Below, piece by piece: positions 10,782-49,365 of a stretch of 64,000 nt of DNA. This DNA comes from Sinohyriopsis cumingii. Its lineage: Eukaryota; Mollusca; Bivalvia; Unionida; Unionidae. Every line of letters starts with the position of its first letter. The first letter of the stretch is position 1. The position numbers were made by a program, and so were the translations under genes. The notes beneath the pieces are model-generated. The model was not told the DNA's origin. It searched no databases and saw nothing but the letters and a program-made list of their open reading frames with translations. Location of the stretch: contig CM068827.1 in assembly GCA_028554795.2 (NCBI GenBank), forward strand, positions 136,966,268-137,030,267, written 5' to 3'.

Positions 10782-11129
10782 AGTAGTGAATGGGGTCACC
10801 CTAGCCTCAATGGGAATTAGCATTACAGAGACCCCTGGGTCACTCTAGCCTCAATGGAAATTTAACATGGAGAAAAATCGTGGGTCACTCTAGGCTCAAG
10901 GGGAATTGAACATGGGAAAAAGTTCTGGGTCACTCTAGCCTCAAGGGGAATTGAACATGGAGAAAAAACCCTGGGCCACTCTAGCCTCAAGAGGAATTGA
11001 ACATGGGATTTTTTAAAAAAATTTTTTAAATTTAAATTTAAATTTAAATTTAAAAAAGGGGTAGGCAATTGAATAAAGTCATTCTCTTTTCGAGAAATAT
11101 GGCTGGCCCTGAAAAGGGCCTTTGGGTTT
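10782..11129 (+). repeat. Polinton left terminal inverted repeat
   Basis: 348 bp, matching the reverse complement of 27371-27721 with few differences. It contains about five tandem 45-bp subrepeats (CTGGGTCACTCTAGCCTCAA). A TTTAAATTTAAATT palindromic AT block follows at 11023-11055. Its inner edge carries the histone-like stem-loop of the minus-strand gene at 11145. Confidence 0.96.
11083..11120 (-). terminator. Histone-type 3' stem-loop and downstream element (copy 1, minus strand)
   Basis: Read on the minus strand, 11120-11105 is GGCCCTTTTCAGGGCC, a perfect 6-bp stem with a TTTC loop. It is preceded by AAACCCAAA and followed by AGCCA. Thirteen nt further is GAAAAGAGA (11091-11083). It lies 25 nt past the stop of the gene ending at 11145. 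The arrangement matches metazoan replication-dependent histone mRNA ends, which are bound by SLBP and cut with U7 snRNP. Function here is inferred. Confidence 0.85.
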
Positions 11130-11144
11130 ATGTTAATGTATCCA

Positions 11145-11378
11145 TTAACATAAAGGGCACCGCATTGGTCTTCTTCTTGTCCTTAGGCTGCGTTTCACTG
11201 TAGGACCGTAAATCAGGACTCTTTTGAGGCATCCTTGTCTTTCTACGTAGATCCTACGTATCCACAGACTGGTGTTTGTCCTGTGGACAACGGTCCACTT
11301 GGATCGGACATACATGGGTATGTCCGTCCGGAACATCATGGAAGACACAAGCGTAGAAGATTGCACATCGGTCGACAT
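11145..11378 (-). CDS. Small Arg/Cys-containing protein, unknown function
   Basis: 77 residues, basic near the C terminus (RSLRTRRRPMRCPLC). I recognise no domain. Two things suggest it is real. A TATAAATA box lies 45-52 nt before its ATG, the same spacing as the other genes of this element, and a histone-like stem-loop lies 25 nt after its stop. It is divergently transcribed from the gene at 11598 and points toward the left terminus. It may be an early or host-interaction gene; that is a guess. Confidence 0.6.
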   Translation of the reverse strand: MSTDVQSSTLVSSMMFRTDIPMYVRSKWTVVHRTNTSLWIRRIYVERQGCLKRVLIYGPTVKRSLRTRRRPMRCPLC

Positions 11379-11597
11379 CTTGAAGCGACGAGAACAAGTG
11401 AATCAATGCACTGAACTGCGCTTATTTATAGGCAGAGGTAGGATTGAAACGGATTGAGTTCATTCACCAATCCGAACACGCGTTACAAAATTCAGTCAGC
11501 TCGCATCCAATCCGAAGAGAGCAGTCTGTGACGTCAGTTGGTCTATATAGATTCGCTAGCGCCTGTGTGCAGTCAATCTATGCGACAGTGATTCAAC
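11379..11597. promoter_or_regulatory. Bidirectional promoter between two terminal genes
   Basis: Minus-strand TATAAATA (11430-11423) serves the gene at 11378, and plus-strand TATATAG (11544-11550) serves the gene at 11598. Between them are two CCAATCCGA boxes (11467 and 11505 regions) with an inverted CGGATTG at 11450, and a perfect CRE-like TGACGTCA at 11529-11536. These are typical host Pol II sites. Factor binding is inferred. Confidence 0.7.
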
Positions 11598-12155
11598 ATG
11601 ACGGAAACTCAGAAAACGATCCATTGGGGTGCACCAGCAGGGGAGACCGCCCAAGGGAACCCGGACTTACTTTCAGAAGAGGTACATTGGGATTTTGTGG
11701 ATTTTCTTACCTCGCAAGAATTTGTTCCGGAACCTTCGTTACCTTCTTCATTACCGCAAGTGGAGAATTTTAGACAGAGACAGAAAGAAGAATTGGAGAA
11801 ATTTATGCAACGACAAAAGGAAGCGGAACAAGCTTTTCTCCTACAGCAACAGCAACAGCAGCAAGAAGAGGTAAGAAAAAAACAACAGCAACAACAGCAA
11901 GAAGTAGCAGCAAAGAAACAAGAGGGTGAAAATCAAACGGCTACGGTACTGTTGGACATTTTAGCGGAGTTAAGAAGTCTGAAACAAATGTATCAGACTT
12001 CTTTATCACGACCGAAGAGAATACGACCTTCCCGAGCTAAACACGCCAACCCTGTGACTAAGCCTATCGTACCACCCTTAGTGATTTCAACCCAATCATC
12101 AGAAGTAGGCCTTGGCCGTGGCAAAGGCTTAAGGCAGTTAAAGTTGATTGGTTAA
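11598..12155 (+). CDS. Gln-rich coiled-coil protein, unknown function
   Basis: 185 residues. The N-terminal 55 residues are acidic/neutral with WDFVDFLTSQEF. A long charged, Gln-rich helix follows (about 60-120, with runs of Q and RQKE/KKQ), then a Leu-rich helix (LLDILAELRSLKQMYQ) and a basic tail with RPKRIRPSRAKH. Membrane segments are absent. The start is the first ATG, about 50 nt after a TATA box. The transcript end is marked by a histone-type stem-loop 27 nt past the stop. The architecture could be a DNA- or capsid-associated scaffold, but no family is recognised. Confidence 0.75.
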   Translation: MTETQKTIHWGAPAGETAQGNPDLLSEEVHWDFVDFLTSQEFVPEPSLPSSLPQVENFRQRQKEELEKFMQRQKEAEQAFLLQQQQQQQEEVRKKQQQQQQEVAAKKQEGENQTATVLLDILAELRSLKQMYQTSLSRPKRIRPSRAKHANPVTKPIVPPLVISTQSSEVGLGRGKGLRQLKLIG

Positions 12156-12182
12156 ACTCACTCCTACACCATAAAGAAAAAA

Positions 12183-12220
12183 GGCCCTTTTCAGGGCCAC
12201 CCACATTTCTCGAAAAGAAA
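12183..12220 (+). terminator. Histone-type 3' stem-loop and downstream element (copy 2)
   Basis: GGCCCTTTTCAGGGCC at 12183-12198 is preceded by AAAAAA and followed exactly by ACCCA. GAAAAGAAA sits 13 nt downstream at 12212-12220. Stem, loop, 3' flank and spaced purine-rich element all match the histone pre-mRNA processing signal, the best of the five copies. It lies 27 nt after the stop of the Gln-rich gene. Confidence 0.9.
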
Positions 12221-12389
12221 TACAATTTCAATTTGCCAATAACTCAAAAATAAACCCCACCCATTTTACCCTTATAGTACGTGTCTGTGTATGAGTGCGT
12301 GAGTGTAGCTTCTTATTTTAAAATCAAAACTCAAAGACACTTACCTTATATCCTTCATGTATTCTTTTATCCATTTTTTACAATCCAAT

Positions 12390-12943
12390 TCACAATTCAC
12401 CACAGAACACTTTAATTAAAAGTTCATTGACTTCTTCTTTCTCCTTGTTTAGTCTCTCTGTGTTTTTAATTTCTTCACCGTTTTTTTCCTCATTTTCTTC
12501 CCTTCTTCTTTTCTTCTCCTGTTTCTTTGCCTCTTTTAAACAGAATTGTCTTCTTTCTTCCTCTTCTTCCTCTGAAGAATCCCTCTCTTCTTTCGAAGAA
12601 TCCCTCTCTTCTTCCGAAGAATCCCTCTCTTCTTCTGAAGAATCCTTCTTTTCTTCTGACTCCTCTTGTTTCTTTTTTGGGCAATCTGGAGACCAATGTC
12701 CTTTTTCTTTACAATAATGACAGGTATCTTGACTTTTGTCTTTTTTAGGCCCCGTTTTTTTTTCTTTTTTGACGGTCTGGACACTCTGAAGACCAATGCC
12801 CTTTCTTCTGACAGATATAGCAAGTATCCTGACTTTTATCTCGAAAGGAAGGAGAGTAGTCCGTAGGCTGGTCTGAAGAGAATTTTCTAATGACCCCCTC
12901 GCAAAGCTCTGACGAAACGTTCCATCTGGATAGTCTCTTCCAT
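12390..12943 (-). pseudogene. CCHC zinc-knuckle protein with Glu/Ser repeats, frameshifted
   Basis: Two CCHC knuckles lie in different frames: CYICQKKGHWSSEC in the frame ending at 12745 and CHYCKEKGHWSPDC in the frame ending at 12390. A repeated EERDSSEE segment and a Lys/Glu-rich coiled tail follow the second. The start I favour is the ATG at 12943, because it lies 55 nt from the minus-strand TATATAAAA at 13006-12998; earlier ATGs precede the likely transcription start. From that ATG two shifts are needed, near a C5 run (about 12895) and in T/A runs near 12750-12775. The breaks may be real decay or homopolymer assembly errors. CCHC knuckles bind single-stranded nucleic acid, as in retroviral Gag; the role here is unknown. 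Confidence 0.7.
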
Positions 12944-13077
12944 CGTTGTGCTCGGTTTGAGAGTGAAATGAATAGTGAAAGGACAAGACACACACCCTTT
13001 TATATACGCTGGTTTGTCATGACTATAAATTAGTCTATGGTGTTTAAACTTTAGTCATTTGACGTTTTGCACTCAAG
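12944..13077. promoter_or_regulatory. Bidirectional promoter between zinc-knuckle gene and PolB
   Basis: TATATAAAA on the minus strand (13006-12998) and CTATAAAT on the plus strand (13023-13030). Each lies 48-55 nt from the ATG it would serve. Confidence 0.75.
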
Positions 13078-16000
13078 ATGAAACGATCCCATTCATTCGA
13101 GAAGAAAGAAGAAGAAGAAAGTAAGAGGCAGAAACGTGATCTATCGCCTCGTACCAGGGCTGAAATCTTGGCACAAATTCATGCCAGTGATTTTGAAGAG
13201 GACATAAGTGAACCAGAATCAGAACCCTCTAAACCAAGTTCACAACCCTTAGTCAACCCTGAAAAGTACTATTCCATTCGAGAGACGGAAAAGCGCTCCT
13301 CTAGAAAATTTAGAACCACGGCTTACACCTACACGGTGAAGTTTAAAGATTTCAAGGCCGACGTACCATTGGAGAAAGCAGAAGGGTTTATCACCGAGAT
13401 GTGGGATTCTTTGCTCACCGCACTCAAGCGACAATGTCAACCCAAAGAAGACGATCGCTTGACACTATCCATAGATCACGACGGTTTGAAATCCCCTGTT
13501 TGGATCGAGTTTAGCAGACCCGCAGAACTAACCCCTTCCAAAGTCATGGACAAGATTCAACACGTACAACAATCTAATGACCAGTTTGACATCACCGATG
13601 GTAAAGCCACACTGAAAATGGCTCACGTCTCTCCTCCTCAAGGGACTGGACGCAAAATGATGTTATTGGTGGACGACCTTCGCAACACCAAAACAAGTCT
13701 CGTCCGAATTAACAACCCTCAAGACCAGATGTGTTTAGCTCGAGCCATCGTGGTGGGACGAACCTATGCCAACAAGAACGACACGGTAGAATGGAAAAGA
13801 GCCTGGAAAACTATTCGACAATCGGACCGAGCCAAACAACGAAACGAAGCAGAACTCCTGTTGCAACAAGCTGGTCTGTCCAAAGACACACCCTGTGGCA
13901 TTCCTGAGATGCAAAAATTGTAAGATGCCCTAGCTCCACGCTACACCTTGAAAGTGCACCCTCAAGAAGTGCGCGGACCTCTGTTGTTTCGAGGCCAAGA
14001 ATTTAAGGACGGAAAATACATTCATGTTTATTATCACGATGACCATTTCGATACCATTACCACTATTACCGGATTCCTGGGATATGTTTATTACTGTGAG
14101 AAATGTGATTATGGTTATAATAATCGTGAGCAACACAAACATTGCGGGTGGAAATGCCCAGGATGTTTGGCCTCTCCACCCTGTCTGAGCGAAGAACCAG
14201 TACCTTGTTCGACTTGTCTGCGCACGTTTGTTAGCCCTACCTGTTACCAACAACATTTGAAAACACAAGGTTCACAGAAGAAATGTGCTTGTCAGCTCCT
14301 GAGATTGTGCCCTACGTGTAGACAAGGCATACGTACCAACAGTACCAAGGCACACGTATGTCGAGCAAAGAAAAAATGTCACATTTGTCACCACATCGTC
14401 GACTTGGAACACCAATGCTACGTGCAAAAATACCAACCCCCACCAGAGAAAGAGGACGGTCACAAGAAGAAAAGCAATTTCATCTTTTTCGATTTCGAAT
14501 GCATGCAAGAGACCGGCATTCACATTCCTAATTTCTGCGTGGCTCATCGAGCGTGCGAGAAGTGCATTCAAGAACCTATCTTCAGTCATTGCCCTCACTG
14601 CAGCAAGATTCCTGGAGGGCGTGAAAAAATCTTTCGAGGACCGAACACGTCAGCCGATTTTGCCCAATGGGTCTTAGATCCCATCGACAAGACGTGGAGC
14701 CAAGAGGACATCGAACGTTACGGAGATTGTCATCGTCATGCCACAGTGATGGCTCACAATTTCTCTGGATACGATGGACAGTTTCTTCTCAGATACTATA
14801 CGGACCAAGGCACCGAGCGTCCTAAAGTCACTTTGAACGGAGCCAAAATCATTTTCATGCAAGTGGGACAAGTGCAGTTTAAAGATTCGATGAGTTACTT
14901 GGCCATGCCTTTGAGTCGAATGCCTAAAACGTTTGGAATGACAGAAATGGCTAAAGGGTACTTTCCTCACTTTTTCAATACGGAAGCCAATCAACATGCC
15001 GTTCTACCCCATTTACCTGAGGCTCACTATTACGACCCCGACAACATGCGTACCGAACAACGAGAAGCTTTCTACGCTTGGTACCAAGCTCACGCCTCGG
15101 ACCCTTTCGACTTTCAGGAAGAAATGTTAAAGTATTGTCGTTCCGACGTGGACATTTTACGGCGTTGCTGTGGAAAATTTCGAGAACTGTTCATGGAACA
15201 CGGAGGGGTCGATCCTTTGAAAGAAGCTTGCACCATTGCCAAAGCGTGTTCCCTAGTGTATCGACAACGATTCATGCCTGAAAACACCGTGGCTGTCATC
15301 AGTCCTCAAACGACCCACTTTGTCAAACGTCAATACTCGGTCAAAGCCCTACGTTGGTTACATTACTTGTGCGACAAGGAAGACAAGTGGATTCAGCATG
15401 CCCGCAACGGAGGGGGCGAAAAGACCATCGGAACGTATTCGGTCGATGGCTGGGACTTAGAAAACCCCAAGATCGTGTACGAGTTTAACGGTTGCTTATT
15501 TCACGGATGTCCCGTCTGTTACCCTGACCGTGGCACTAAAAATCAGTTTTTGCAACGAACCCTGGAAGACTTGTACCAGGACACTTGTCAGCGGCGCCTA
15601 AAGTTAGAACAGGAAGGATACCAAGTGGTGGAAATGTGGGAACACGAGTACGATCACCGTATGAAAACCGATCCCGAGTTTAAACGCCTCGTGGAAGGTT
15701 ACCAGTTCATGGACCCGCTGAACCCGAGGGATAGTTTGTACGGAGGAAGGACCAATGCCACCTGTTTGCTGTACCAAGCCGACGAAGAGAAAGGAGAAGA
15801 AATCAAATACTTGGACGTGTGTTCGCTGTATCCCTACGTGTGCAAATATTGTCGCTTTCCTGTAGGGCACCCGCAATTGTTAACGGAACACATTGACCTG
15901 AAAAACATTCGACAATACGAAGGCTTGATCAAGTGTAAAGTTTTGCCTCCCACGAACCTATACCATCCCGTCTTACCTCACCATTGTCAAGGCAAACTGC

Positions 16001-17142
16001 TGTTTCCCTTGTGCCGTACTTGTGCCGAAACGTGCAACCAAGATCAGCCTTGTCATCACACCCAGGAAGAACGGGCCTTGACGGGAACCTGGGTCAGCAT
16101 AGAATTGTTCAAAGCTCTGGACATGGGATACCAACTGTTAGAAGTGTACGAAATTTGCCACTTTCCCAAGACACAACAGTACCACAAGGGTGACCCTACT
16201 CAGAAAGGCATTTTCGCCGACTACGTGGATGTCTTTTTGAAACTGAAACAAGAAGCCAGCGGCTATCCTTCCTGGTGTCACACTCCCGAAGACCAAATAA
16301 AATTCAAAGAGAAATACTACGAACAAGAAGGCATCTCTTTAGACCACATCGAAAAAAACGAAGGCAGGCGATCGTTTGCCAAAGTGATGTTAAATTGCTT
16401 GTGGGGTAAAATGGCATAACGACCGTGTTTACCCAAGACGGAATATTTGACAGAACCTTCCCGCTACTTCCAGATGATTCACGACAAAACCAAATACATG
16501 AAACACGTGGACGTCGTTCGAGAGGATTTGATCTTGGTCAATTACGAAGAAGATCTGGACTTTGTACAAGACGACCCTTTTGGAAATGTCATCATTGCGG
16601 CTTACGTGACAGCTCATGCTCGCTTAAAATTGTACGAAGCTTTAGAACTGTTAGAAGAACGCGTCCTGTACTTTGACACGGACAGTTGCATTTACATCCA
16701 TCACCCGAGTCAACAGCACCCTGACATCGAAGGAGACCGTTTAGGAGCCTGGACAGACGAGCATCCCGACGACAAGATTCTAAGTTTCGTCAGTGGCGGC
16801 CCCAAAAATTACGGCTACGAATACCGGGACAAACAAGGAGAAGTGCACACGACGTGCAAAGTGAAAGGACTGACTCTGAATTATCGTACCAGTCGAGTGG
16901 TCAACTTTGGGGTATTGAAAGAAGCCTTGCAATCGGGAGAGGATGCAAACTTTAAAGTGACCACCTATCAACCGAACAAGATTGTACGTTTACCCACTCT
17001 CCACATCGTCAGTCGACCCTTGGAAAAAGTCTATCAAATTGTATACCAGAAACGAGTGCGACTTCCCAATCACTTTACGTTGCCGTACGGTCACGTCGGT
17101 ATTGGTCTGTATATAAAAAGGAACCCTAGGCAAGATCGATAG
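13078..17142 (+). pseudogene. polB: Protein-primed family-B DNA polymerase, two in-frame stops
   Basis: One frame of 1,355 codons interrupted only by TAA at codons 282 and 1114; this is a known Polinton/adenovirus-type replicative polymerase. An N-terminal charged region comes first, and then a Cys/His-rich zinc-finger-like region (about 340-450). The exonuclease motifs are FDFE (~472), HNFSGYDG (~560) and YCRSDVDIL (~686). Polymerase motifs are DVCSLYP (~913), KVMLNCLWG (~1102) and YFDTDS (~1198). All catalytic residues are kept. The start is the ATG 48 nt after a TATA box. The sequence on both sides of each stop aligns as one polymerase, so the stops are point changes in an otherwise complete gene. 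The 3' end overlaps the TATA box of the next gene. Confidence 0.95.
17110..17120 (+). promoter_or_regulatory. TATA box inside the 3' end of polB
   Basis: TATATAAAAAG, 49-59 nt before the ATG at 17169 and embedded in the last codons of the polymerase. Confidence 0.75.
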
Positions 17143-17168
17143 TTCATTGTTCATTGAAGTAACTTACC

Positions 17169-17560
17169 ATGTCGTTGACGAAGAAGAAACCAGATTGGTT
17201 AGGAGTCAAATGTTGGACATCACCGAGACCAGGGTTTTGAGGCTTGGACACAAGAGGTGGCCCAGTATGCACGAGAGTTATTCAAGGAAAAAAGTTACTT
17301 TTCAACCTGTGTTAGTGACGGTGCCAGAAGAACCCGTCACCCAGGACAGGACTGTCGTGGACAGGCCTGAAAGACCCTTTCGGGAGGACACTTGTGTGAC
17401 CTTACCCCCTACCATAGAACTGGTTAGAACTTTACCCAAAACATGTGGTTGTTGTACAGACACTTGTTTTTATTCCACGTTCATGGTTATCATGTGCCTT
17501 TTATTCTTGTACTTAAGCCTTTGGCTTTTATGTATTTTTGTCTTTCGTATTCATGTTTGA
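17169..17560 (+). pseudogene. Small C-terminal-anchored membrane protein, probably frameshifted
   Basis: The TATA-positioned ATG (17169) opens MSLTKKKPDWLG and stops after 23 codons. A neighbouring frame reads plausibly through DQGFEAWTQEVAQYARELF. The frame ending at 17560 gives a Pro/Thr-rich stretch, a Cys cluster (CGCCTDTC) and one strong transmembrane segment (FMVIMCLLFLYLSLWLLCIF). Only shifts between frames connect them, so the gene appears broken. A polyadenylation signal AATAAA follows at 17576. No homologue is recognised; it may be a type II or tail-anchored envelope or membrane protein. Confidence 0.5.
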
Positions 17561-17575
17561 AAAAAACAAAACATT

Positions 17576-17605
17576 CAATAAACGTGTTCTGAAAAAGTAT
17601 ATAAA
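17576..17605 (+). promoter_or_regulatory. Poly(A) signal followed by TATA box
   Basis: AATAAA at about 17577 ends the previous transcript. TATATAAA at 17598-17605 starts the ATPase unit 48 nt before its ATG. Confidence 0.75.
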
Positions 17606-17652
17606 CTCTTGTCTTGTTTGTTTTTCGTGTCACAAGTGACATTTCTCACACA

Positions 17653-18394
17653 ATGGCTACCTCTGCTGTCTCTGCTCCCTCTTCCTCTACTGTCAAAGTC
17701 ATCGACGAACACTTAGATCGTGCCAGTTGGGAGGCTTTGTATCTTCGCCATCCCTTTAACATGCTCATTGCTGGACCTAGCGGTTCAGGCAAAACCGAAT
17801 TCGTCAAACGTTTGATCGAACATAAACATCATTTGATCGATCGGCCACCTCAACGGATCGTGTGGTGTTACAAAGAGTGGCAATCGGCGTACAACCTCTT
17901 GCGAGAAAGTCAAGGCGATTCCATCGTGTTTGTGGAAGGCATTCCTAAAGAAGACGACGGCATCGTCTCTGACTCCCGTCAAACCCATTTGGTCATTTTC
18001 GACGACATGTTAGGAGAAGACGAAGAAGAAATTAAACTTTGGTTCACGCGCCAAGGGCATCACCGTAATGCCAGTGTCGTTTACATCACCCAAAATTTGT
18101 TTCAACAAAGTAAAGCCCATCGCACCATCAGTCTCAATGTGCATTACATGGTCTTGTTTAAAAGCCCTCGAGATAAATCGCAAGTGCAAGTCTTAGCCAA
18201 ACAGTTAGGAACGCCTTGGCTGACTCAGGCCTAAGACGATGCCACTCAAACTCCACGCCTATTTACTCGTCGATTTGAAACCTACGACTCCCGAGTATTT
18301 GCGATTTCGTACCCACTTGTTTCACCACTGGTGCCAAGACGGAGGGCCTGTCCTGTACACGTCTCCGTCCTCGACTTCATTTCACTCCCCATAA
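17653..18394 (+). pseudogene. FtsK/HerA-type genome-packaging ATPase, broken near C terminus
   Basis: This enzyme pumps the genome into the capsid in Polintons and related viruses. The Walker A motif is GPSGSGKTEF (about 41-50) and Walker B is LVIFDDM (about 113-119), followed by a conserved ITQN sensor region (VVYITQNLF). The frame stops at TAA, codon 194. The family's usual C-terminal strand (AYLLVDLKP) follows in the +1 frame and ends at 18394. There is thus one nonsense codon and one single-base shift, both after the catalytic core. I start at 17653 because it is the first ATG after the TATA box. Confidence 0.92.
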
Positions 18395-18402
18395 AAAAAA
18401 TC

Positions 18403-18410
18403 TATAAAAA
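18403..18410 (+). promoter_or_regulatory. TATA box for the basic core-like gene
   Basis: TATAAAAA, 41-48 nt before the ATG at 18451. Confidence 0.75.
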
Positions 18411-18450
18411 CCTCAGACCCTTTTTCGTCTGTCTCACTCTCAGTGCGAAC

Positions 18451-19392
18451 ATGACGTCCCTTCAGTCGCATCTTCCCGTCAAATTGATTCGTGCCTTGTA
18501 TGGCATCAGTCGAGAAAAAGATCCACAAACACGAGCTCGTGTCTTAGAAGCTAGTCTCAAAGAAGTCTTACGATGGTTCACGGTGACGGCACGTCAATTA
18601 CTCCAAGGAATCATTCAGATTCCTCATCAAACCAAACGCTTTTTCGATCGAAACAAAGTCGCTTTGGTCCAACTGGCCGATCCCCGCATCGACACTCAAA
18701 CCAAAAAACAAATCATTTTGAAACCTGGAGGGAGCGGTACTCTAGGAGGGGTCATCATTCGCTCACTCTTAAGATGGGATCCTAATGCCCCCAAAGTTAT
18801 ACCCAAGACAAAAGTCCAACGAAGCCCCAAGAAGAAAAAGACCAGGTCCCCAAGGAGAACTTCTCCAGTGGCAGGACCCTCCTCTGACCAGACACCACCC
18901 CGGAAAAAGAAAAGAAGCCCCCAGAAAAAGAAACAGAGAAAAAGTCCCCAGAAAAAGAAAAGTCCACAGAAAACTAGTCGCAAGAGAGGCACTTCGGCCA
19001 GGACGCAACCTTACACTCGCAAACCACGATCTGCCACGGCAGTGACTGCGTCTCCGGCATCCTCACGTTTGTCCACTTCTCCGTTGATGACACCAGGAAC
19101 TGAAGAGTACTTGGAGACGTTGATTACACCAAGAACTTCTCCGTTGATGACCCCCAAAAGAACTTCCCCAGTGGCAGGACCCTCCAATTTAGTGGCAGTG
19201 GCTGCTGCTCACAAAGTACCTTCTCCCAAAATCAAAGTCCAAGAAAGATCGGGCATGTTACAAAGTTTACTGGATTTGTCCAAGCAAGAACTGGCTCGAT
19301 TTAGTCCGTTACGTACCCCTGCACGACGTGTCATGCCTGTCCTCAAATTGATACGACGTAAAGACAATCAGTGGCGGCGCGTTCCAGTATAA
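18451..19392 (+). CDS. Lys/Ser/Pro-rich basic protein with GG motif, core-like
   Basis: 313 residues, intact. The helical N-terminal 100 residues contain LADPRIDTQTKKQIILKPGG, followed by a hydrophobic stretch. This is the pattern (charged helix, KK, then a GG turn) common in a family of small Polinton proteins. The middle is very basic with SPKKKKTRSPRR and repeated SPQKK units, and TSPVAGPS occurs twice. The C terminus has LIRRKDNQWRRV. The Lys/Ser-Pro repeats suggest DNA condensation and phosphorylation as in viral core proteins or sperm histones; that is an inference. The stop codon TAA lies within the TATA box of the next gene. Confidence 0.8.
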   Translation: MTSLQSHLPVKLIRALYGISREKDPQTRARVLEASLKEVLRWFTVTARQLLQGIIQIPHQTKRFFDRNKVALVQLADPRIDTQTKKQIILKPGGSGTLGGVIIRSLLRWDPNAPKVIPKTKVQRSPKKKKTRSPRRTSPVAGPSSDQTPPRKKKRSPQKKKQRKSPQKKKSPQKTSRKRGTSARTQPYTRKPRSATAVTASPASSRLSTSPLMTPGTEEYLETLITPRTSPLMTPKRTSPVAGPSNLVAVAAAHKVPSPKIKVQERSGMLQSLLDLSKQELARFSPLRTPARRVMPVLKLIRRKDNQWRRVPV

Positions 19393-19396: not shown

Positions 19397-19451
19397 GGCC
19401 TGTGACCAAGTAGGGTATCAGTGTTTTTTTGGTGCTCCTAAAGACTCAAAG

Positions 19452-19838: not shown

Positions 19839-19843
19839 AAAGG
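19834..19843 (+). promoter_or_regulatory. TATA-like box overlapping the upstream stop
   Basis: AGATAAAAAG, 45-54 nt before the ATG at 19888; the TAA stop at 19836-19838 is within it. Confidence 0.6.
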
Positions 19844-19887
19844 CCCTCGGAAGTCCCAAGATCTCAGAATCGACCCCTGACAACCCC

Positions 19888-20538
19888 ATGGAAGGACGAA
19901 AACTAGCTTTAGTGCCTTACAAACGATGGATGGAATACCATCGATGGCAAGAACAACGCACCCCGCATTTACCTTCCAATCCCAATTTGAGCGAGATGTC
20001 CCAGTTACAACACGAATTGCAGTCCTTGATGGATCGCCAAGATTTGTCCGAAACAGAAAAATCGCAAAAGTACGGTCAACTCTTGCAACGACTGCAACTC
20101 TTTCACCAGAAAGCTTTAGACGAAACAGCTCTACCCACTCTGAAAGATTTTAAGACCTTGATGAAAAGTCCAGCACCATCACCAGTACCAGTGCCAGTAC
20201 CAGTACCACCAGTACCAGTGACCAAGACAGAAAAAGGAAAAGTAGAAGAAGAAGAAGGGTTTCAAACTCCACCAGAAAAAGTACGCAAGTTAACAACACC
20301 ACCTACCTCCAGAATTGGATGGATTAAAGAGATGATGGCCACCCCTTCTTCATCACAAGAGAAAAAGAAAGTGAAGACAGAAGTGAAGACAGAAGTGAAA
20401 CAAGAACCGATATCCCCCGCTCTGACATCCTCCTCCTCTTCAACACCTATTGCCGGTCGCACACGCAAAGCATTGCAATCCAAGAAAATACCCCAAGAGA
20501 AAAAGAGTAGCATCCTCCAAGAGTGGGTGCCTTATTAA
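19888..20538 (+). CDS. Conserved Polinton protein with LLQR helix, Pro-rich linker
   Basis: 216 residues, intact. The N terminus begins MEGRKLALVPYKRW. A helical pair follows, in which DRQDLSETEKSQKYGQLLQR (about 50-70) is the recognisable core. Similar "DLS..EK...Y...LQR" segments recur in one conserved Polinton gene of unknown function. The C-terminal half is a Pro-Val repeat (PVPVPVPVPPVPV), then acidic/basic low-complexity sequence with EVKTEVKQEP. It has no known enzymatic motif. The integrase follows after 24 nt without its own TATA box, so the two may share a transcript. Confidence 0.75.
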   Translation: MEGRKLALVPYKRWMEYHRWQEQRTPHLPSNPNLSEMSQLQHELQSLMDRQDLSETEKSQKYGQLLQRLQLFHQKALDETALPTLKDFKTLMKSPAPSPVPVPVPVPPVPVTKTEKGKVEEEEGFQTPPEKVRKLTTPPTSRIGWIKEMMATPSSSQEKKKVKTEVKTEVKQEPISPALTSSSSSTPIAGRTRKALQSKKIPQEKKSSILQEWVPY

Positions 20539-20562
20539 CACACCAACCAACCAACACAAAAA

Positions 20563-21673
20563 ATGGAAAAAGTCTTAGCCAGCATTTACCTCGATCCCTC
20601 GCATCCTGCAGGTTACGCAGGAGTTCAAAAATTGTATCGTGCTGCCAAAACGCGACTGAAAAGTCTCCGTTTACCTCAAGTGCAACGATGGTTACAAGAA
20701 CAAGCTACCTACACTTTACACAAACCCATTCGACGCAAGTTTGCCAGAAGTCGCACTCGAGTGGAAGGCATCGATCATCAATGGCAAGCCGATTTAGCCG
20801 ATGTCTCTCATTTGACTACCTACAATCGTGGCTACAAATATTTCTTTTGTGTCATCGACATCTTTTCCAAATTTGCCTGGGTCGTGCCCTTGACTTCCAA
20901 ATCGAGCAGCGAGTTAGTGCGAGCCCTGCAACGGGTGTTGAAACAAAGCGGTCGTCACCCTCTTCGATGGCAAACGGACAAAGGCACAGAATTTCTGAAC
21001 CAAGCTTTCCAAAAAGAATTAAAGAAACGTGACATTCATTTTTTTTACCACCGAGAATCCCGAAACCAAAGCCAGCATCGTTGAACGTTTTCAACGCACT
21101 TTGAAAGAACGCATGTGGAAATATTTTACGCATCACCACACTCTGAAGTACATCGACATCTTACCGCACCTGGTGCAAGCGTACAACCAATCTTAAAATC
21201 GAAGCATCGGACGTGCCCCGCAAGACGTGACTCCCGACAACGAAGTGCTGGTGTTTGAGCGTCTGTTTGGTACGTCCCCGACGAGGGCTGTCCCCAAGAA
21301 AAGTGGAGACTTGGCCGTAGGAGATTGGGTGCGCATTGGCAAAACCAAAGGCACTTTTGACAAAGGTTACTTACCTAACTGGACGACCGAATTGTTTCGC
21401 GTCACTGGACGAGTGCATGGTTGTCATCCTGCCGTCTATAAATTGGAAGACATGAACGGATAAGTGCTCAAAGGAACGTTTTATTTGCCCGAGTTACAAC
21501 GTGTCACCAAAAAAGAAGACGACGTGTACGACATCGAAAGCATTCTCGAACGCAGAACCCGTAAAGTGGGCAAACGACGTGTCAAAGAAGTCAAAGTACG
21601 TTGGAAAGGATATCCGCCCAGTTTTGATTCTTGGATCGACGCTTCGCAAGTCATCGACTATAAAAAGAAGTGA
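20563..21673 (+). pseudogene. int: Retroviral-type integrase with chromodomain, disrupted
   Basis: It inserts the element and gives 6-bp duplications. An N-terminal helical domain precedes the rve core: first Asp in HQWQADLADV (~77), second Asp in WQTDKGTEF (~139), and Glu in SIVERFQ after a frameshift. An SH3-like stretch with WVRIGKTKGTFDKGYLPNW follows. The C-terminal chromodomain has DVYDIESILERR and VRWKGYPPSFDSWI, which would target histone marks. Lesions are a shift at a T8 run near 21040, TAA at 21194-21196 and TAA at 21461-21463. All DDE residues are present. The reading frame ends TGA at 21673, just before the next ATG. Confidence 0.94.
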
Positions 21674-21678
21674 CCATC

Positions 21679-22095
21679 ATGCCTTTTCACACAGCAGACG
21701 CAGCTACGTCGACCACTCCTCCTTCACCTAGTTCTTCTGTGCAAGATTTACAAAAACAACCCTTGTGGGTGTGGTGTGGAGAACGTGTGCCTAAAACGCA
21801 AATCGTCTTTTTCTGCCAAATCTTCGTGGTGTATTGTGTCATCGGGGCAGCCATCGCCAATTTGAGTTTGCAACAAGGAGACAAACAATTGTGGACCATT
21901 TTATTGAGCAGTTGCATCGGTTACCTGCTTCCTAATCCCTCCCTGAAATTCACCTCGAACGGGAACCCCGGGAACCTTGTGTCCAGTGCCAGTGCCAGTC
22001 ACCACTTCAATCACAACCAGAACCCCATTTTAGACGGAGACACGCCTCTGACGTCCAGTAACCCCTCGGACAGCCACAGAACTCTGGAATTATGA
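21679..22095 (+). CDS. Conserved small Polinton membrane protein
   Basis: 138 residues from the first ATG. A Ser/Thr/Pro-rich N terminus leads to WCGERVPKTQIVFFCQIF, the first of two hydrophobic segments. The second ends SSCIGYLLPNPSL. The "VPK.QIVFFCQ ... LLSSC.GYLLPNP" pattern is a widespread Polinton/adintovirus protein of unknown function with two membrane spans. The tail is Ser/Asn-rich. Its stop overlaps the start of the minor capsid gene (ATGA at 22092-22095), suggesting coupled or shared expression. A degraded copy lies at 46265-46620. Confidence 0.85.
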   Translation: MPFHTADAATSTTPPSPSSSVQDLQKQPLWVWCGERVPKTQIVFFCQIFVVYCVIGAAIANLSLQQGDKQLWTILLSSCIGYLLPNPSLKFTSNGNPGNLVSSASASHHFNHNQNPILDGDTPLTSSNPSDSHRTLEL

Positions 22096-23015
22096 GTCAC
22101 CAAAACCAATTTTACTTAACTTTACCCAGTGACAGTTCCATGGAGGTGTTTCCCAAGAACACGTTGTGCTGTTACACGGCCAAATTACCTCAGGCCATCC
22201 AGTTAGATCACGAAGCCCATTGGGAAGTGACTTTAATAGAAATGATTCACCCGACCCAAGTCCTCAATGTCCTTCCCAATCAAAATTTTTTTGATGTGGA
22301 AGTTCATGACGAGCAAATGCAACAGTGGATGGATAGCAATGTCAAATATGACAAGAAAACCCGTACACAAAAGTACACCACCTATCACTTGTTCATTCCC
22401 CCAGGCTATTATTTTAGTGGTCAACATTTGGTCAGCACCATAACCTCCAGGTTTAATGTCGTGTTTCTGAAAGCTTTGGAGCATGTTAACAAAAGTGTCA
22501 CCATGGAGTACCACAAAACAGCTCGTCGCTTCTTGATGAAATTTGAACGGAGTAAAATCCTGTCCATTTTATTTTGTCCTGAATTGTATGACATGTTGGG
22601 CGGAGACATGAACCTGAGAATGAGCATGATGAAGAAAAGCGAATTACCCATCGTTTACGACAACGAGTCTTTTAGCAAGTTATTTCGTGCCCCGATAGAA
22701 CTGAACCAAGGACTGAATTTGATGTTTGTGTACTCCGATGTGGTGGAGTATAACGTGGTGGGACACACCTCCGTACCGTTACTGCGTGTCATTCCTTTCA
22801 AAGTGGATTCTGCCACGAACACTGACGAGGAAGGTGGAAACACTTACCACGTCCACCGCGAATTTGTACATCCTCACTATTTGCCTGTCAGTAAGTCGTA
22901 TTTGGACACGGTCAACATTACTATAAAAGGAGATTTGGGACAAAATATTCCATTCACCAAAGGAAAAGTCACGGTGAAACTCCATTTTCGAAAACGGTTT
23001 TCTCACGATTCGTAA
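22092..23015 (+). CDS. Minor capsid protein (penton-type single jelly roll)
   Basis: 307 residues, intact. It starts MSHQNQFYLTLPSDSS and has HWEVTLIEMIHPTQ near residue 45, the signature of Polinton minor capsid proteins. The rest is beta-rich. The family forms the pentamers at capsid vertices. The order minor capsid, pVI-like, major capsid is the standard Polinton late block and is kept here and in the decayed copy at 46620-47485. A TATA-like TATAAAAG at 22923 inside its 3' end could serve the next gene. Confidence 0.92.
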   Translation: MSHQNQFYLTLPSDSSMEVFPKNTLCCYTAKLPQAIQLDHEAHWEVTLIEMIHPTQVLNVLPNQNFFDVEVHDEQMQQWMDSNVKYDKKTRTQKYTTYHLFIPPGYYFSGQHLVSTITSRFNVVFLKALEHVNKSVTMEYHKTARRFLMKFERSKILSILFCPELYDMLGGDMNLRMSMMKKSELPIVYDNESFSKLFRAPIELNQGLNLMFVYSDVVEYNVVGHTSVPLLRVIPFKVDSATNTDEEGGNTYHVHREFVHPHYLPVSKSYLDTVNITIKGDLGQNIPFTKGKVTVKLHFRKRFSHDS

Positions 23016-23018
23016 GTC

Positions 23019-23435
23019 ATGTATCCAGTGTACCGAGGGGTTGCTCGACAGCGAGGACACGGTTTAGGAGATATGTTAAAATCGGCCTTTCGTTCGGTGG
23101 CCCCGGTGTTGAAACCGATGGTGACACGCGGATTGCACGCATTGAAAGATGCGGCACTGACGCAAGGCAAAGAATTTCTCCAAAATGTCATCATCGACAA
23201 ACAAAACCCTAAAGAAGCCTTCATGAGGGCAGGCAAAAATGTCTTGCTGCAAACGGGCAAAGACATTTTAGGCCAACGAGAAACACCTATAAATGCCCTG
23301 CACGCTACCGAGTCAGGCATTCAGCAAGGACAAGGCAGAAAGAGACGACGAAGAAAACACCCTTTCACCAGACTTCAAGCGAGAAAGGCCAAGAAAAGAA
23401 GAACCGTTCGAGACTTAGACGTTTTCGATTATTGA
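23019..23435 (+). CDS. pVI-like capsid-internal protein
   Basis: 138 residues, intact, 3 nt after the minor capsid stop. It has a Gly-rich amphipathic N terminus (RGHGLGDMLKSAFRSVAPVL), then helices, and ends in a very basic cluster (GRKRRRRKHPF, ARKAKKRR) and DLDVFDY. Adenovirus pVI-type proteins link capsid to core and can disrupt membranes through such an amphipathic helix. The position between the capsid genes supports the call. An internally deleted copy is at 47505-47692. Confidence 0.85.
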   Translation: MYPVYRGVARQRGHGLGDMLKSAFRSVAPVLKPMVTRGLHALKDAALTQGKEFLQNVIIDKQNPKEAFMRAGKNVLLQTGKDILGQRETPINALHATESGIQQGQGRKRRRRKHPFTRLQARKAKKRRTVRDLDVFDY

Positions 23436-23452
23436 GAAAAGAGACAAAAAAA

Positions 23453-24763
23453 ATGATGCACCGAGAATCTTGCGCTTGTTCCAAGACGGAACTGGATCTG
23501 CTTGACATGCCCCCCACGATGATGACGATGCAAGAATCCCAGTGGGTGGAATTTCACCCCGTCTCCTCACTGACCGATTCCGCTCCCATCGAGTTTGAAA
23601 TCAAAGGACAGCCCGAAGATTGCATCGATCTGAATAGCAGTTACTTGTACCTGAAAGTCAAAATTCTAGATAAGACTGGAGGTGCTATAGACGATGAAGC
23701 AGTAGCTCACGTCAACAATTTCATGCATTCCTTGTTCAGTGGAGTGGACTTGTACTTGAATAACAAACTGGTCAGTAGCAGCATGGATACTTACCCTTAT
23801 CGTGCCTACCTGGAAAATCTCTTGACGTACGGAATAGATGCCAAGAACACTCATCTCAATGCCTGTGTGGTATGGGAAGCTGACGAACCTACCAAGTTTG
23901 AAATATTGGAAACTGATGAAAAGAAAGACAACAATGATGGATTTCTAGAACGAAGAAAGAGAATCACGGGAGCCGACACAAGCTTAGAACTAATGGATCT
24001 TTGCATTTGGACATGTGGTTGCAAGAAAAGTATTTGCTGAACGGGGTGGATGTCCGCCTGAGACTGAATCGTAGCAGTGCCGCTTTCCATTTGATGGCTG
24101 ATAGTGACGGTTACAAAACCAAAATCCTAGAAGCCAGACTACGTACGCCGTGCGGAAGTGTTACCTAAAGTGGAAAACGACATCAGTCAGACGTTGAGCA
24201 GAACGACTGCCAAGTATCCCATACGACGCGTGGAAGTGAAAACCTTCACCATTCCCAAGGGACAGCGATCCATGATCGAAGATCATCTGTTCCAAGGACA
24301 GTTACCCAAACGTTTGATCGTTGGTATCGTCGAGAATACAGCCTTCAACGGAGCTGCCGAAAAAAATCCTTTCTACTTTCAACACTTTGGCGTGTCCAAA
24401 TTCGAAGTCAGTCGCGATGGCAAGACCTTGTGTACCCGACCTTTCGAACCTGACTTTACCAAGAAGAATTACTTGAGATCGTACTTGTCCCTGTACGAAG
24501 CCACCGGACAGTTAGGAACCAATACCAGTCACGGTATTACGTACGAGGATTATGCAGGAGGCTACGCTTTGTGGGCTTTCGATTTCACTCCAGACCAAGG
24601 CAGCGACGAGGGACATTTCCACCCTATAAAATCCGGCCAGATTCGTGTGGAAATTCAGTTTAAAGACCGAGACCCTGATGAAACGGTGAACGTCATCCTG
24701 TATGCAGAATTCGATAATACCATAGAAATCAACAGTTTGAGAGAAGTCATCCTAGATTACTAG
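23453..24763 (+). pseudogene. Major capsid protein (double jelly roll), two frameshifts
   Basis: About 435 codons if read through two single-site shifts. Recognisable stretches are SSLTDSAPIEFEIKGQPEDC (~40-60), HVNNFMHSLFSGVDLYLNNK (~90-115) and, near the C terminus, SGQIRVEIQFK and VILYAEFDNTIEI. These are typical of Polinton hexon-like major capsid proteins, which form the trimeric capsomers. The frame is lost near 24003 (a one-base deletion by comparison with the other frame) and again near 24145. The segment between is open in a second frame. The start is the first ATG of an ATGATG pair. A degraded relative is at 47697-48790. Confidence 0.93.
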
Positions 24764-24813
24764 AAACCATGGAAGACTGTCATCCCTCTTTACCTAGTGG
24801 AGAAACTTTTAGT

Positions 24814-24998
24814 GTTGGATTATTGTTAAAAAATGTTAGATTTGTTGTTGTTTAGTGTTAAGTGATTTTTGAATAAAAAATGTTGTGTTTTGAAAAAATT
24901 GTTTGATGTTATATTGTTGGATTATTGTTAAAAATGTTAGAGTTGTTGTTTAGTGTTAAGTGATTTTTGAATAAAAAATGTTGTGTTTTGAAAAAAAT
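24814..24998 (+). repeat. Tandem duplication of a poly(A)-signal region
   Basis: Two roughly 85-bp units (24814-24898 and 24916-24997) each contain GAATAAAAAATGTTGTG. They give the late capsid transcripts two consecutive AATAAA signals, in contrast to the stem-loop ends of the terminal genes. Confidence 0.9.
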
Positions 24999-25107
24999 AC
25001 CTTTGTCTTTTGTTTAGCTATAAGAATGTTCGATTGATGCTCTTTCATTTCTTACTATCCCTCTCATGACACTCACTAAACGTTGCGACTCAAAAACCGT
25101 GTGGGGG

Positions 25108-25143
25108 GATGTTTTCCTTCACGTCCGCGCTTTGACTTTAAGA
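25108..25143 (+). promoter_or_regulatory. Repeated early-type promoter, copy A
   Basis: GATGTTTTCCTTCACGTCCG at 25108, then TTTAAG at about 25137, 54-60 nt before the ATG at 25197. The same block precedes the next two genes. Confidence 0.8.
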
Positions 25144-25196
25144 ACTGGGGTTGTTTCCAGTCTAACCATCCATTGTCGACTCATCCTCCTAAGAAG

Positions 25197-25556
25197 ATGT
25201 GCTCCAAACTAGCTAAGCTCAACGAAGCCTACGTGAATTTGCATAGGGTCAGACACAGTCTGATACCGAAGCCAGAAGAAATAGAGAATGTGAGAATGTT
25301 AAAAATCACCGAAGACCTGATAGAAGAGCTCTTCAGAGAAGAAATGAACAGGGAAAAAGAAGAATGGACAGAGAAGTACAGACTTCAGAGACAGCAGCAA
25401 CAGCAGCAACAACAACAACAGCAGCAGCAACCTGAAGCTGACAGAGGCTTTGTCGATTGTCGTATCGACACCAAAGAGTTCTTCTTCTCTTTTCGAAGAA
25501 GCAGACCTATCGCCAGAAAGTCTATCCTCAGAGGACATCGCATTCTTAGAAACTAA
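25197..25556 (+). CDS. Small coiled-coil, poly-Gln protein (terminal gene family member 1)
   Basis: 119 residues from the ATG that follows the shared promoter; the frame is open upstream but those codons precede the TATA. The N-terminal helix is KLAKLNEAYVNLHRVRHSLI, then an acidic helix, a run of about 13 Gln, and a basic tail (SFRRSRPIARK). Its N-terminal helix resembles that of the gene at 26052 in spacing and residues. It ends 26 nt before a histone-type stem-loop. Function unknown. Confidence 0.7.
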   Translation: MCSKLAKLNEAYVNLHRVRHSLIPKPEEIENVRMLKITEDLIEELFREEMNREKEEWTEKYRLQRQQQQQQQQQQQQQPEADRGFVDCRIDTKEFFFSFRRSRPIARKSILRGHRILRN

Positions 25557-25582
25557 AAGATTGCCATAGCAAACAAAAAAAC

Positions 25583-25620
25583 AGCCCTTTTCAGGGCTAC
25601 CCAATACTCTAGAAAAGAAA
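25583..25620 (+). terminator. Histone-type 3' stem-loop and downstream element (copy 3)
   Basis: AGCCCTTTTCAGGGCT (25583-25598) is followed by ACCCA, then GAAAAGAAA 13 nt past the stem (25612-25620). The outer pair is A-T instead of G-C. An AATAAA lies about 45 nt downstream as a possible back-up signal. Confidence 0.85.
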
Positions 25621-25964
25621 TAACAATCCATTTGCCAATGTGTGTAGGTAGAGTAGTGTGAAAATAAACACTAACTCTTTTTTTAAAAAAATGTGAGGGT
25701 ATGTGTTTGTGTGTTTGTGTTTGTAAGTGGTTAAGTAAGTTGGTATGGATAGTAGATTAAAATGATGTCTTTTTTGGTGTTTGAGGTGTAAATTTGGGGT
25801 TAGATTGGACTGCTTTGCATATGTGGATAGTCTATTGAAGTGATTTATAAAAAATTTTAAAATAGTGTTGGGTAGCATAAAAAGTGAGTGAGTATTTCTT
25901 TTAGGTCCGCGCGTTGTTGTTTTTTTGTCATGATGTAGGTAAGATCAATTTTATGTTTTTAGGG
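25621..25964 (+). other. Spacer between terminal genes, partly duplicated
   Basis: The 3' sequence (GTAGGTAGAGTAGTGTGAA and following) recurs after the next stem-loop at 26515. The stretch 25905-25960 recurs at 26815-26875, so the spacer was copied with the gene unit. Confidence 0.75.
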
Positions 25965-26000
25965 GATGTTTTCCTTCACGTCCGCGATTTCACTATAAAT
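25965..26000 (+). promoter_or_regulatory. Repeated early-type promoter, copy B
   Basis: GATGTTTTCCTTCACGTCCG at 25965, followed by TATAAAT at 25994-26000, 52-58 nt before the ATG at 26052. Confidence 0.85.
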
Positions 26001-26051
26001 TGAAACTCGTTCGGCAGTCCAACTACCCTTGTTGATTGATCAACACCAAAA

Positions 26052-26432
26052 ATGAACACGAGACTGGAGAAACTGTTGGAACTTCATGTGCATCTGGAAT
26101 ATGCCAGGCGCATATTAAATGAACTGGCCGCGGAAGCCATTGTGGAGGAGGGAAGGATAAGAGAGGAGGAGGAAAGAAGAAACAAAGAAGAGGAGGAGAG
26201 AAGATATAAAGAAGAAGAGGAAAGAAGATACAAAGAGGAGGAGAGAAGATACAAAGAAGAGGAGGAGGATGAGGAAAAGGAGAGAAGAAGAAGAAATTTC
26301 AGAATCCCAGAAACCGAAAATTGGGATTCTGAAGCCACATATCCTGCCTCTGCTCTCTCCCCCCAAAAGGTAAAAAGTAACTGGGGGATAAGATGTGTAT
26401 GCGGCGCCAGGCCTGGAAGGTGCCACCATTAA
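26052..26432 (+). CDS. Small Glu/Arg-rich coiled-coil protein (family member 2)
   Basis: 126 residues. The N-terminal helix is LEKLLELHVHLEYARRIL, similar in pattern to member 1. A long charged helix of EEERRYKEEE repeats (about 38-78) follows, then a neutral tail with a CVCGARPGRC cysteine cluster. The repeats probably form a single alpha helix or coiled coil. Function unknown. It has the same promoter and stem-loop as its neighbours, so it belongs to one amplified cassette. Confidence 0.7.
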   Translation: MNTRLEKLLELHVHLEYARRILNELAAEAIVEEGRIREEEERRNKEEEERRYKEEEERRYKEEERRYKEEEEDEEKERRRRNFRIPETENWDSEATYPASALSPQKVKSNWGIRCVCGARPGRCHH

Positions 26433-26460
26433 CCAGGTGTCCATGAAGTTCCAAAAAAAC

Positions 26461-26498
26461 AGCCCTTTTCAGGGCTACCCAATACTCTAGAAAAGAAA
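26461..26498 (+). terminator. Histone-type 3' stem-loop and downstream element (copy 4)
   Basis: AGCCCTTTTCAGGGCT (26461-26476), then ACCCA, and GAAAAGAAA at 26490-26498, again 13 nt past the stem. Nearly identical to copy 3 over more than 80 bp. Confidence 0.85.
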
Positions 26499-26800
26499 TA
26501 ACCATCAATTTGCCAATGTGTAGGTAGAGTAGTGTGAATATAAACACTAACTCTTTTCTAAGATAGTGTGAGGGTATGTGTTTGTGTGTTGGTGCTTGTA
26601 AGAGCTAAGGTATGTTTGTGTGAATAGTAGATTATGGGTTTCTTTATTGTTTCTTAGCGTATGTGAAGAGTATAGTTAGGGTTTTGTAAGCTCTCACGTA
26701 CGATTGTGCGGATAGTAGATTATGGATTTTGTTTATTGTTTCTTAGCGTATGTGGAGAGTATAGTTTGGGTTATATTATAAGAAATGAAAAAAAGTAGGG
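26499..26800 (+). other. Spacer with internal short duplication
   Basis: A phrase of about 60 bp (GTAGATTATGG..TTTATTGTTTCTTAGCGTATG) occurs twice (about 26625 and 26710). No gene. Confidence 0.7.
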
Positions 26801-26910
26801 GATGTTTCCTTCACGTCCGCGCGTTGCTGTTTCTTTGGTCATGATCTAGGTAAGATCAATTTTATGTTTTAGGGGGATGTTTTCCTTCACGTCCGCGCTT
26901 TCACTATAAG
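26801..26910 (+). promoter_or_regulatory. Repeated early-type promoter, copy C with doubled core
   Basis: The GATGTTTCCTTCACGTCCG core occurs at 26801 and again at 26876, followed by TATAAG at 26905-26910. This is 41-46 nt before the ATG at 26951. Confidence 0.85.
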
Positions 26911-26950
26911 AACCCACAGTATTCGTCGTTCAAACCATTCTACAAAGAAG

Positions 26951-27301
26951 ATGGCTTCTAACCAAATGGACAAAATACAAACATTGCAAGACGTTTTAGA
27001 CAACTTAGGAATGATGGAACAGATGTTAATAAGACTCGTTGAAGACCATTATTCCTATAGTCCCCATCGTGTAAAGATGGAAATTAATAACTTAAAAAAG
27101 GTAAAGGACAAGATTAGTGGTGTCATGAAAGAGATAAAGGAGGAGAAGGAGGATGAAGAGGAAAGAATAAGAATAAGCAAATGGAACGAAAAAATTGAAA
27201 AAGAAGAAGAAAATGAGAAGAGGAAGAAAGAAGAGGAGGAAGAGAAGAAGAAAGAAGAGCAGGAGAAAAAAAAAAGAAAGAGAAGAAGAGAAAGAGTGTA
27301 G
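26951..27301 (+). CDS. Small Lys/Glu-rich coiled-coil protein (family member 3)
   Basis: 116 residues. The N-terminal helix is MDKIQTLQDVLDNLGMMEQM, then a basic segment (HRVKMEINNLKKVKDK), and the C-terminal half is a continuous Lys/Glu/Arg helix ending KKRKRRRERV. It lies next to the right terminus with its stem-loop in the inverted repeat. Coding sequence is poorly conserved relative to its neighbours although promoter and 3' end are shared. Function unknown. Confidence 0.7.
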   Translation: MASNQMDKIQTLQDVLDNLGMMEQMLIRLVEDHYSYSPHRVKMEINNLKKVKDKISGVMKEIKEEKEDEEERIRISKWNEKIEKEEENEKRKKEEEEEKKKEEQEKKKRKRRRERV

Positions 27302-27370
27302 GAGATAAAATAAGAACTTGGTGGAGAAAAAGAAGAAATTAGAAGCAGAAGAAGAAGAAGAAGAAGAAGA

Positions 27371-27721
27371 AAACCCAAAGGCTCTTTTCAGGGCCAGCCA
27401 TATTTCTCCAAAAGAGAATGACTTTATTCAATTGCCTACCCCTTTTTTAAATTTAAATTTAAATTTAAATTTAAAAAATTTAAAAAAAAAAAAATCCCAT
27501 GTTCAATTCCTCTTGAGGCTAGAGTGGCCCAGGGTTTTTTCTCCATGTTCAATTCCCCTTGAGGCTAGAGTGACCCAAAACTTTTTCCCATGTTCAATTC
27601 CCCTTGAGCCTAGAGTGACCCACGATTTTTCTCCATGTTAAATTTCCATTGAGGCTAGAGTGACCCAGGGGTCTCTGTAATGCTAATTCCCATTGAGGCT
27701 AGGGTGACCCCATTCACTACT
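27371..27721 (-). repeat. Polinton right terminal inverted repeat
   Basis: 351 bp, the inverse of 10782-11129, ending CACTACT at the element boundary. It carries the same 45-bp subrepeats and AT palindrome. The inner edge holds stem-loop copy 5. Confidence 0.96.
27380..27418 (+). terminator. Histone-type 3' stem-loop and downstream element (copy 5, in the TIR)
   Basis: GGCTCTTTTCAGGGCC (27380-27395; one G-T pair in the stem) is preceded by AAACCCAAA and followed by AGCCA. AAAAGAGAA begins 14 nt further. It serves the gene ending at 27301 and is the inverted partner of copy 1. Confidence 0.85.
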
Positions 27722-49352: not shown

Positions 49353-49365
49353 TGGTGTCAGAAGG

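Follow-up and report, generated by a model that had tools for sequence, protein, structure and literature searches.

The closest described counterparts of the transcript ends reported here are those of replication-dependent histone mRNAs. Passages of the published accounts place cleavage 5 nt past the stem of the 3' hairpin, at ACCCA (PMC6303110), and describe pairing of the CUCUUU of mouse U7 RNA with an AAAGAG core (PMC7026596). Another account describes canonical histone genes of cnidarians with the same stem-loop and purine-rich element and no poly(A) signal, and it characterizes core histone genes as generally free of introns and short in their untranslated regions (UTRs) (PMC5011920). 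We analyzed a 64,000-nt stretch of the bivalve Sinohyriopsis cumingii (GenBank assembly GCA_028554795.2, contig CM068827.1, positions 136,966,268 to 137,030,267; here called the window), in which an element of ∼16.9 kb at positions 10782 to 27721 is a Polinton by its terminal inverted repeats, target duplication, and Pfam content. Five genes near its ends, here designated A to E, carry the complete cis-signal of histone 3' ends, in most cases close to the stop codon; the signal is preferentially conserved between the duplicated cassettes C and D and has left a trace in one relative of gene B. We consider it likely from these features that genes A to E bear genuine processing signals of the replication-dependent histone type, and that their transcripts would be matured by SLBP and the U7 small nuclear ribonucleoprotein (snRNP) into nonpolyadenylated mRNAs; expression mainly in S phase would be a plausible consequence.

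Histone-type 3' ends on five terminal genes

Each of the five genes has one open reading frame (ORF), followed by a hairpin with a 6-bp stem and a UUUC loop, a five-base tail, and a run of 9 to 10 purines (Table 1). All five hairpins lie at the positions and on the strands reported in an initial annotation of this DNA, and its statement that every stem is followed by ACCCA or AGCCA holds as well, with ACCCA at B, C, and D (3/5) and AGCCA at A and E (2/5). When the block is taken to start at the first run of seven or more purines past the stem, the distance is 13 nt for A and B, 14 nt for E, and 12 nt for C and D; the spacing of 13 to 14 nt given in that annotation is thus right for A, B, and E and slightly too long for C and D. 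The core motif is AAAGAG in blocks A and E and AAAGAA in blocks B, C, and D. Four of the five stems begin 24 to 28 nt past the stop codon, and that of gene E begins at 78 nt.

Table 1. Coordinates of the Polinton ends, terminal genes, hairpins, purine blocks, and promoter-like repeats in the window
Feature	Coordinates	Strand	Remarks
Target-site duplication CACCGA, left copy	10776..10781	.	From the printed junctions
Left terminal inverted repeat	10782..11129	+	Inner edge 9 bp upstream (transcript sense) of hairpin A
Purine block A, GAAAAGAGAA	11082..11091	-	
Hairpin A, GGCCCTTTTCAGGGCC	11105..11120	-	24 nt past stop codon; tail AGCCA; Histone3 33.9 bits
Gene A	11145..11378	-	77-aa basic ORF, outward transcription; TATA-like box 52-53 nt before ATG
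Gene B	11598..12155	+	185 aa; long helix predicted, conserved basic C-terminal tail; 20 database relatives
Hairpin B, GGCCCTTTTCAGGGCC	12183..12198	+	27 nt past stop codon; tail ACCCA; Histone3 41.2 bits
Purine block B, GAAAAGAAA	12212..12220	+	
Promoter-like repeat, cassette C	25104..25145	+	TTTAAG where TATA box would be
Gene C	25197..25556	+	119-aa ORF
Hairpin C, AGCCCTTTTCAGGGCT	25583..25598	+	26 nt past stop codon; tail ACCCA; Histone3 31.0 bits
Purine block C, AGAAAAGAAA	25611..25620	+	
Promoter-like repeat, cassette D, with CACTATAA	25961..26002	+	Repeat analysis
Gene D	26052..26432	+	126-aa ORF
Hairpin D, AGCCCTTTTCAGGGCT	26461..26476	+	28 nt past stop codon; tail ACCCA; Histone3 31.0 bits
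Purine block D, AGAAAAGAAA	26489..26498	+	
Promoter-like repeat, cassette E, with CACTATAA	26872..26913	+	Repeat analysis
Gene E	26951..27301	+	116-aa ORF, outward transcription
Right terminal inverted repeat	27371..27721	-	Holds hairpin E
Hairpin E, GGCTCTTTTCAGGGCC	27380..27395	+	78 nt past stop codon; tail AGCCA; Histone3 26.6 bits; one G-U pair
Purine block E, AAAAGAGAA	27410..27418	+	
Target-site duplication CACCGA, right copy	27722..27727	.	From the printed junctions

A covariance-model search matches all five hairpins to the Rfam family Histone3 (RF00032) at E ≤ 9e-4; hairpin B alone passes the gathering score of 34 bits, and within positions 9000 to 29500 there is no further match at E ≤ 10. 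The sequence GGCYCTTTTCAGRGCC, allowing up to two mismatches, occurs five times in the window against an expectation of 0.05 from 100 shuffles. A composite pattern (6-bp stem, U[U/C][U/C]N loop, tail, and purine run) applied to both strands of the 64 kb recovers the five known ends and nothing else, and 60 dinucleotide-preserving shuffles yield a mean of 0.97 hairpins, none with the tail and none with the purine run. Chance palindromes are rejected on the shuffle expectation and on the lack of the composite in the 60 shuffles. When folded with their flanks, hairpins A to D clearly beat shuffled sequences (1, 2, 2, and 9 of 200 fold as well), and all 30 base-pair positions hold standard pairs, the outer pair being G-C in A, B, and E and A-U in C and D. 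The histone-type signal proposed in the initial annotation (an SLBP hairpin, a cleavage tail, and a U7-pairing purine block) is strongly supported at the level of sequence, with the full composite present in five of five ends.

Lineages of the signal and its trace in a gene B relative

Hairpins A and E both lie inside the inverted repeat, the inner edge of which falls 9 bp before the hairpin, and they count as one lineage because the repeat keeps them alike. Cassettes C and D (hairpins at 25583 and 26461) are a tandem duplicate, and by sequence comparison the five copies are three lineages, namely A/E, B, and C/D. The shared spacers suggest a single common origin for all five 3' ends, and five independent acquisitions are rejected because of these common spacers and the inverted-repeat location. 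Identity between C and D is 100% (38/38) from the hairpin to the purine block, 94% over the next 55 nt, 76% over a further 200 nt, 81% in the promoter repeat, 65% in the stop-to-stem spacer, and 60% in the ORF, a profile that fits selection on the signal.

A read-through protein gives an indirect view of the same signal in another element. The gene B relative P0204, from a contig of 1,150 bases, has no stop where the other relatives end, and its identity with the gene B protein is 62% in the database search and 71% in the alignment. Its 31-residue extension corresponds to the hairpin, tail, and purine block translated in one frame of the gene B 3' UTR; the comparison scores 60, the best of 2000 shuffles reaches 45, and the next-best places in the whole window are the hairpin regions of C, A, and D. 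Among the bases of the extension that are fixed by the genetic code, 25 of 31 agree at hairpin B, and the three next positions in the window reach 20 each, two of which are hairpins (A and C) and the third of which is unrelated. If the lost stop stood at the residue following SRS, we count 28 nt from there to the start of the stem. These matches suggest, indirectly, that the signal is conserved beside the same gene in one other element.

Putative processing of the terminal transcripts and competing explanations

The cis-signals and the histone-like gene layout lead us to infer a route of maturation in which host SLBP would bind the hairpin of the terminal-gene pre-mRNAs and U7 snRNP would bind at their purine block. 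Cleavage would then fall after A[C/G]CCA, 5 nt beyond the stem, and the transcripts would act as mRNAs without poly(A). It is plausible that the terminal genes would be active chiefly during S phase, in which SLBP is present and the element can replicate. Transcription of genes A and E runs outward into the inverted repeats, and the layout of the element suggests that a processing signal placed at their inner edge would let both transcripts finish at the same defined point before the flanking host DNA. Whether an animal Polinton lineage gates terminal, early-type genes to S phase by SLBP/U7-dependent 3' ends, such that regulatory proteins would appear only in replication-competent cells, is in our judgment an evenly balanced question.

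The initial annotation also stated that the central genes use AATAAA instead of the hairpin. AATAAA does follow the major-capsid-type and family B DNA polymerase (PolB) frames (at 24872, 24970, and 17577), but it is also found past hairpins B and C, and the contrast in poly(A) signals between capsid and terminal genes is only suggestive. There is no sense-strand AATAAA within 1.5 kb of hairpins A, D, and E. The copies after B and C may provide a fallback for polyadenylation; some human histone pre-mRNAs are described, in a passage of PMC9756948, as carrying both kinds of signal and using either.

Several observations weigh against processing of the histone type or against the evidence for its conservation. 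AATAAA occurs 50 nt past hairpin B and 64 nt past hairpin C, with ATTAAA variants further on, and polyadenylated forms are therefore possible. Hairpin E folds with its flanks no better than shuffled sequences (34/200 fold as well). The covariation at the outer pair is a single event among five related copies and its shuffle control is not decisive, as 50 of 500 shuffles reach the score, and gene conversion could lie behind the high identity of C and D. P0204 is one sequence, and in its stem the U of the top pair is replaced by A, with a partner base that the protein does not fix. No related element DNA was found in IMG/VR with the protein encoded at 22092-23015 and its alignment or with the ATPase and gene B alignments, and none was confirmed among prokaryote genome contigs with the 22092-23015 and gene B alignments; because these searches confirmed no related DNA, the case for conservation is built on proteins and the one read-through relative. 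Finally, core genes of this Polinton copy are interrupted, and the copy itself may be dead.

Some of these observations would be expected if the signals were a relic, with a histone 3' end once taken from the host, spread by duplication, and now unused, and with the genes polyadenylated or silent. All five ends share the spacer and look like one ancestral piece, the core genes are interrupted, and AATAAA is present downstream of B and C. A relic would not be expected to have the stretch from hairpin to purine block as the best-kept part of the C/D duplication (38/38, against 60% in the ORF), nor to leave that stretch recognizable beside a gene B relative at 62% or 71% protein identity, and three of the five ends have no downstream sense-strand AATAAA within 1.5 kb. 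We regard a relic as unlikely.

The cis-signals would be identical if the hairpin RNAs targeted the host, with abundant short transcripts competing for SLBP, 3'hExo, or U7, disturbing the histone supply, and favoring a naked viral genome. Five copies close to the Histone3 consensus in one small element agree with such competition, but each hairpin comes after an ORF, and gene B is conserved in the 19 aligned of its 20 relatives, which points to ends that serve protein expression. We hold competition with the host to be distinctly improbable.

Transcript ends of some giant viruses follow a hairpin rule, and the stems here could likewise be generic palindromes that end or stabilize transcripts without SLBP or U7. 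All five stems fold when taken alone (-9 to -11.4 kcal/mol), and a pattern scan of IMG/VR finds the hairpin core in 101 stretches. Nevertheless, nothing in a generic hairpin calls for the UUUC loop, for A[C/G]CCA, or for purines at a fixed distance, and among the 99 IMG/VR core matches inspected by eye with 40 nt of flank none has ACCCA and one has AGCCA, that one without a purine block. In the same database the strict composite and a composite with a UUUA loop have no matches, and a relaxed hairpin followed by ACC has two, neither with ACCCA and one with a purine run ∼24 nt past the stem, as judged by eye. We give a generic hairpin very little credence.

A DNA-level terminal element, such as a replication origin or packaging signal, would account for the two copies at the inner edge of the terminal inverted repeat, but with three copies internal and all five oriented with their genes, 24 to 78 nt past a stop codon, it is scarcely credible. 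SLBP/U7-dependent processing of the terminal transcripts is the reading we prefer to all of these.

The Polinton, its terminal genes, and known systems

None of the five proteins is assigned to a histone family by Pfam; A has no match, and the matches of the other four are weak and under the cutoffs. By eye, charged residues are frequent in D and E and glutamine in C, and A is basic. The predicted structure of the gene B protein is a single long helix (residues 53 to 136) with low-confidence ends and a mean predicted local distance difference test score (pLDDT) of 69.5. Its database relatives number 20 at E ≤ 1, and the 19 that were aligned, the partial match P0212 being left out, show conservation along the helix and in a basic C-terminal tail. 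This tail, GLGRGKGLRQLK (12102 to 12152), is well conserved among the aligned relatives and by eye resembles the GRGKGGKGLGK tail of histone H4; mimicry and chance are both possible. A regulatory, early-type role for the products of genes A to E would be our guess, with the terminal genes of adenoviruses as the model.

A 42-nt module with CCTTCACGTCCGCG precedes genes C, D, and E, the later copies being 81% and 95% identical to the first, and a fourth, weaker copy lies at 26796; the module is a candidate shared promoter. TATA-like boxes occur 47 to 59 nt before the ATG in four of the five terminal genes, and gene C has TTTAAG at 60 nt. With the single short ORF of each gene and the short 3' UTR of four of them, this arrangement is similar to that of histone genes. 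A promoter difference was rejected as a mark of the terminal genes, as TATA-like boxes at 48 to 55 nt before the ATG are also found at 13078, 17653, and 18451. Because boxes at a like distance precede some central ORFs, it is the 3' end and not the promoter that sets the terminal genes apart.

The 6-bp sequence CACCGA directly adjoins both outer ends of the Polinton. The inverted repeats are ∼350 bp long and begin with AG; their arms comprise 233 nt at 100% and 121 nt at 95% identity, and 344 of 354 aligned bases are identical over a slightly wider stretch. Each repeat contains about five tandem units of ∼45 bp with a motif like TGGGTCACTCTAGCCTCAA (10791 to 11013 and 27495 to 27710). Pfam identifies PolB in the first of two open pieces (PF03175, E 2.4e-40), the gene being broken by a stop near 16419, a retroviral-type integrase in a short ORF (PF00665 rve, E 9e-14), and an A32-type packaging ATPase in a short frame (PF04665, 33.9 bits against a cutoff of 22.8). 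The ORFs at 22092-23015 and 23453-24763, which we take to code for penton-type and major-capsid-type proteins, respectively, have no match in the Pfam scan, and none of the 72 database relatives of the former has an informative name. The five terminal ORFs are all open. The major-capsid-type gene, like PolB, is interrupted, and these breaks, together with the short frames of the integrase and ATPase, mean that this copy is probably not autonomous. A minus-strand ORF of 208 amino acids (12390 to 13016), situated between the polymerase and the hairpin genes of the left end, has a CCHC zinc knuckle (PF00098, E 2.3e-5); the pattern scan of the window finds no histone-type hairpin for it.

The ATPase has 355 database relatives, of which 120 were listed, and one relative with 66% identity is labeled as coming from a metagenome-assembled genome (MAG) of Candidatus Thiodiazotropha taylori. 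This bacterium is a symbiont of lucinid clams, so the MAG contig may be host DNA, which hints at bivalves or other marine animals as hosts of related elements. For the Polinton of the window, the type of element and the histone-type signal themselves point to an animal host.

Elsewhere in the window, a second virus-like element at 59607 to 63446, near the right edge, codes for a double-jelly-roll capsid-type protein (PF21738, E 4.8e-23) and has an ORF with an adenovirus-protease match under the cutoff; the pattern scan of the window finds no histone-type hairpin in it. A Gypsy-like retrotransposon lies at 49330 to 53746, as judged by eye from translations.

In the open-licence PMC literature we found no report joining "histone stem-loop" with Polinton or Polinton with SLBP, and among the matches listed for broader open-licence queries none announces 3' ends of the histone type for Polintons or viral mRNAs. 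If the proposed processing is correct, a full signal on non-histone mRNAs of a virus-like element would break the rule stated in a passage of PMC6303110 (eLife 2018) and would represent viral capture of a cell-cycle RNA pathway. It would also offer a direct route to testing how gene expression in Polintons is tied to replication of the host, and genes of this kind could escape RNA sequencing that selects for poly(A).

The terminal genes resemble animal replication-dependent histone genes in the design of the mRNA 3' end, with a 6-bp stem, a UUUC loop, an ACCCA-type tail, and a purine element 12 to 14 nt on, and, for all but gene E, in the short distance from stop codon to stem. They differ from histone genes in that their proteins have no Pfam histone match and are part of a virus-like transposon, that two copies have an AGCCA tail, and that only one of the five passes the Rfam gathering score. 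The element as a whole is like Polinton/Maverick elements of the adintovirus type in its AG-starting inverted repeats, 6-bp target duplication, PolB, rve integrase, and A32-type ATPase, but unlike those elements as they are known, it has terminal genes with histone-type 3' ends.

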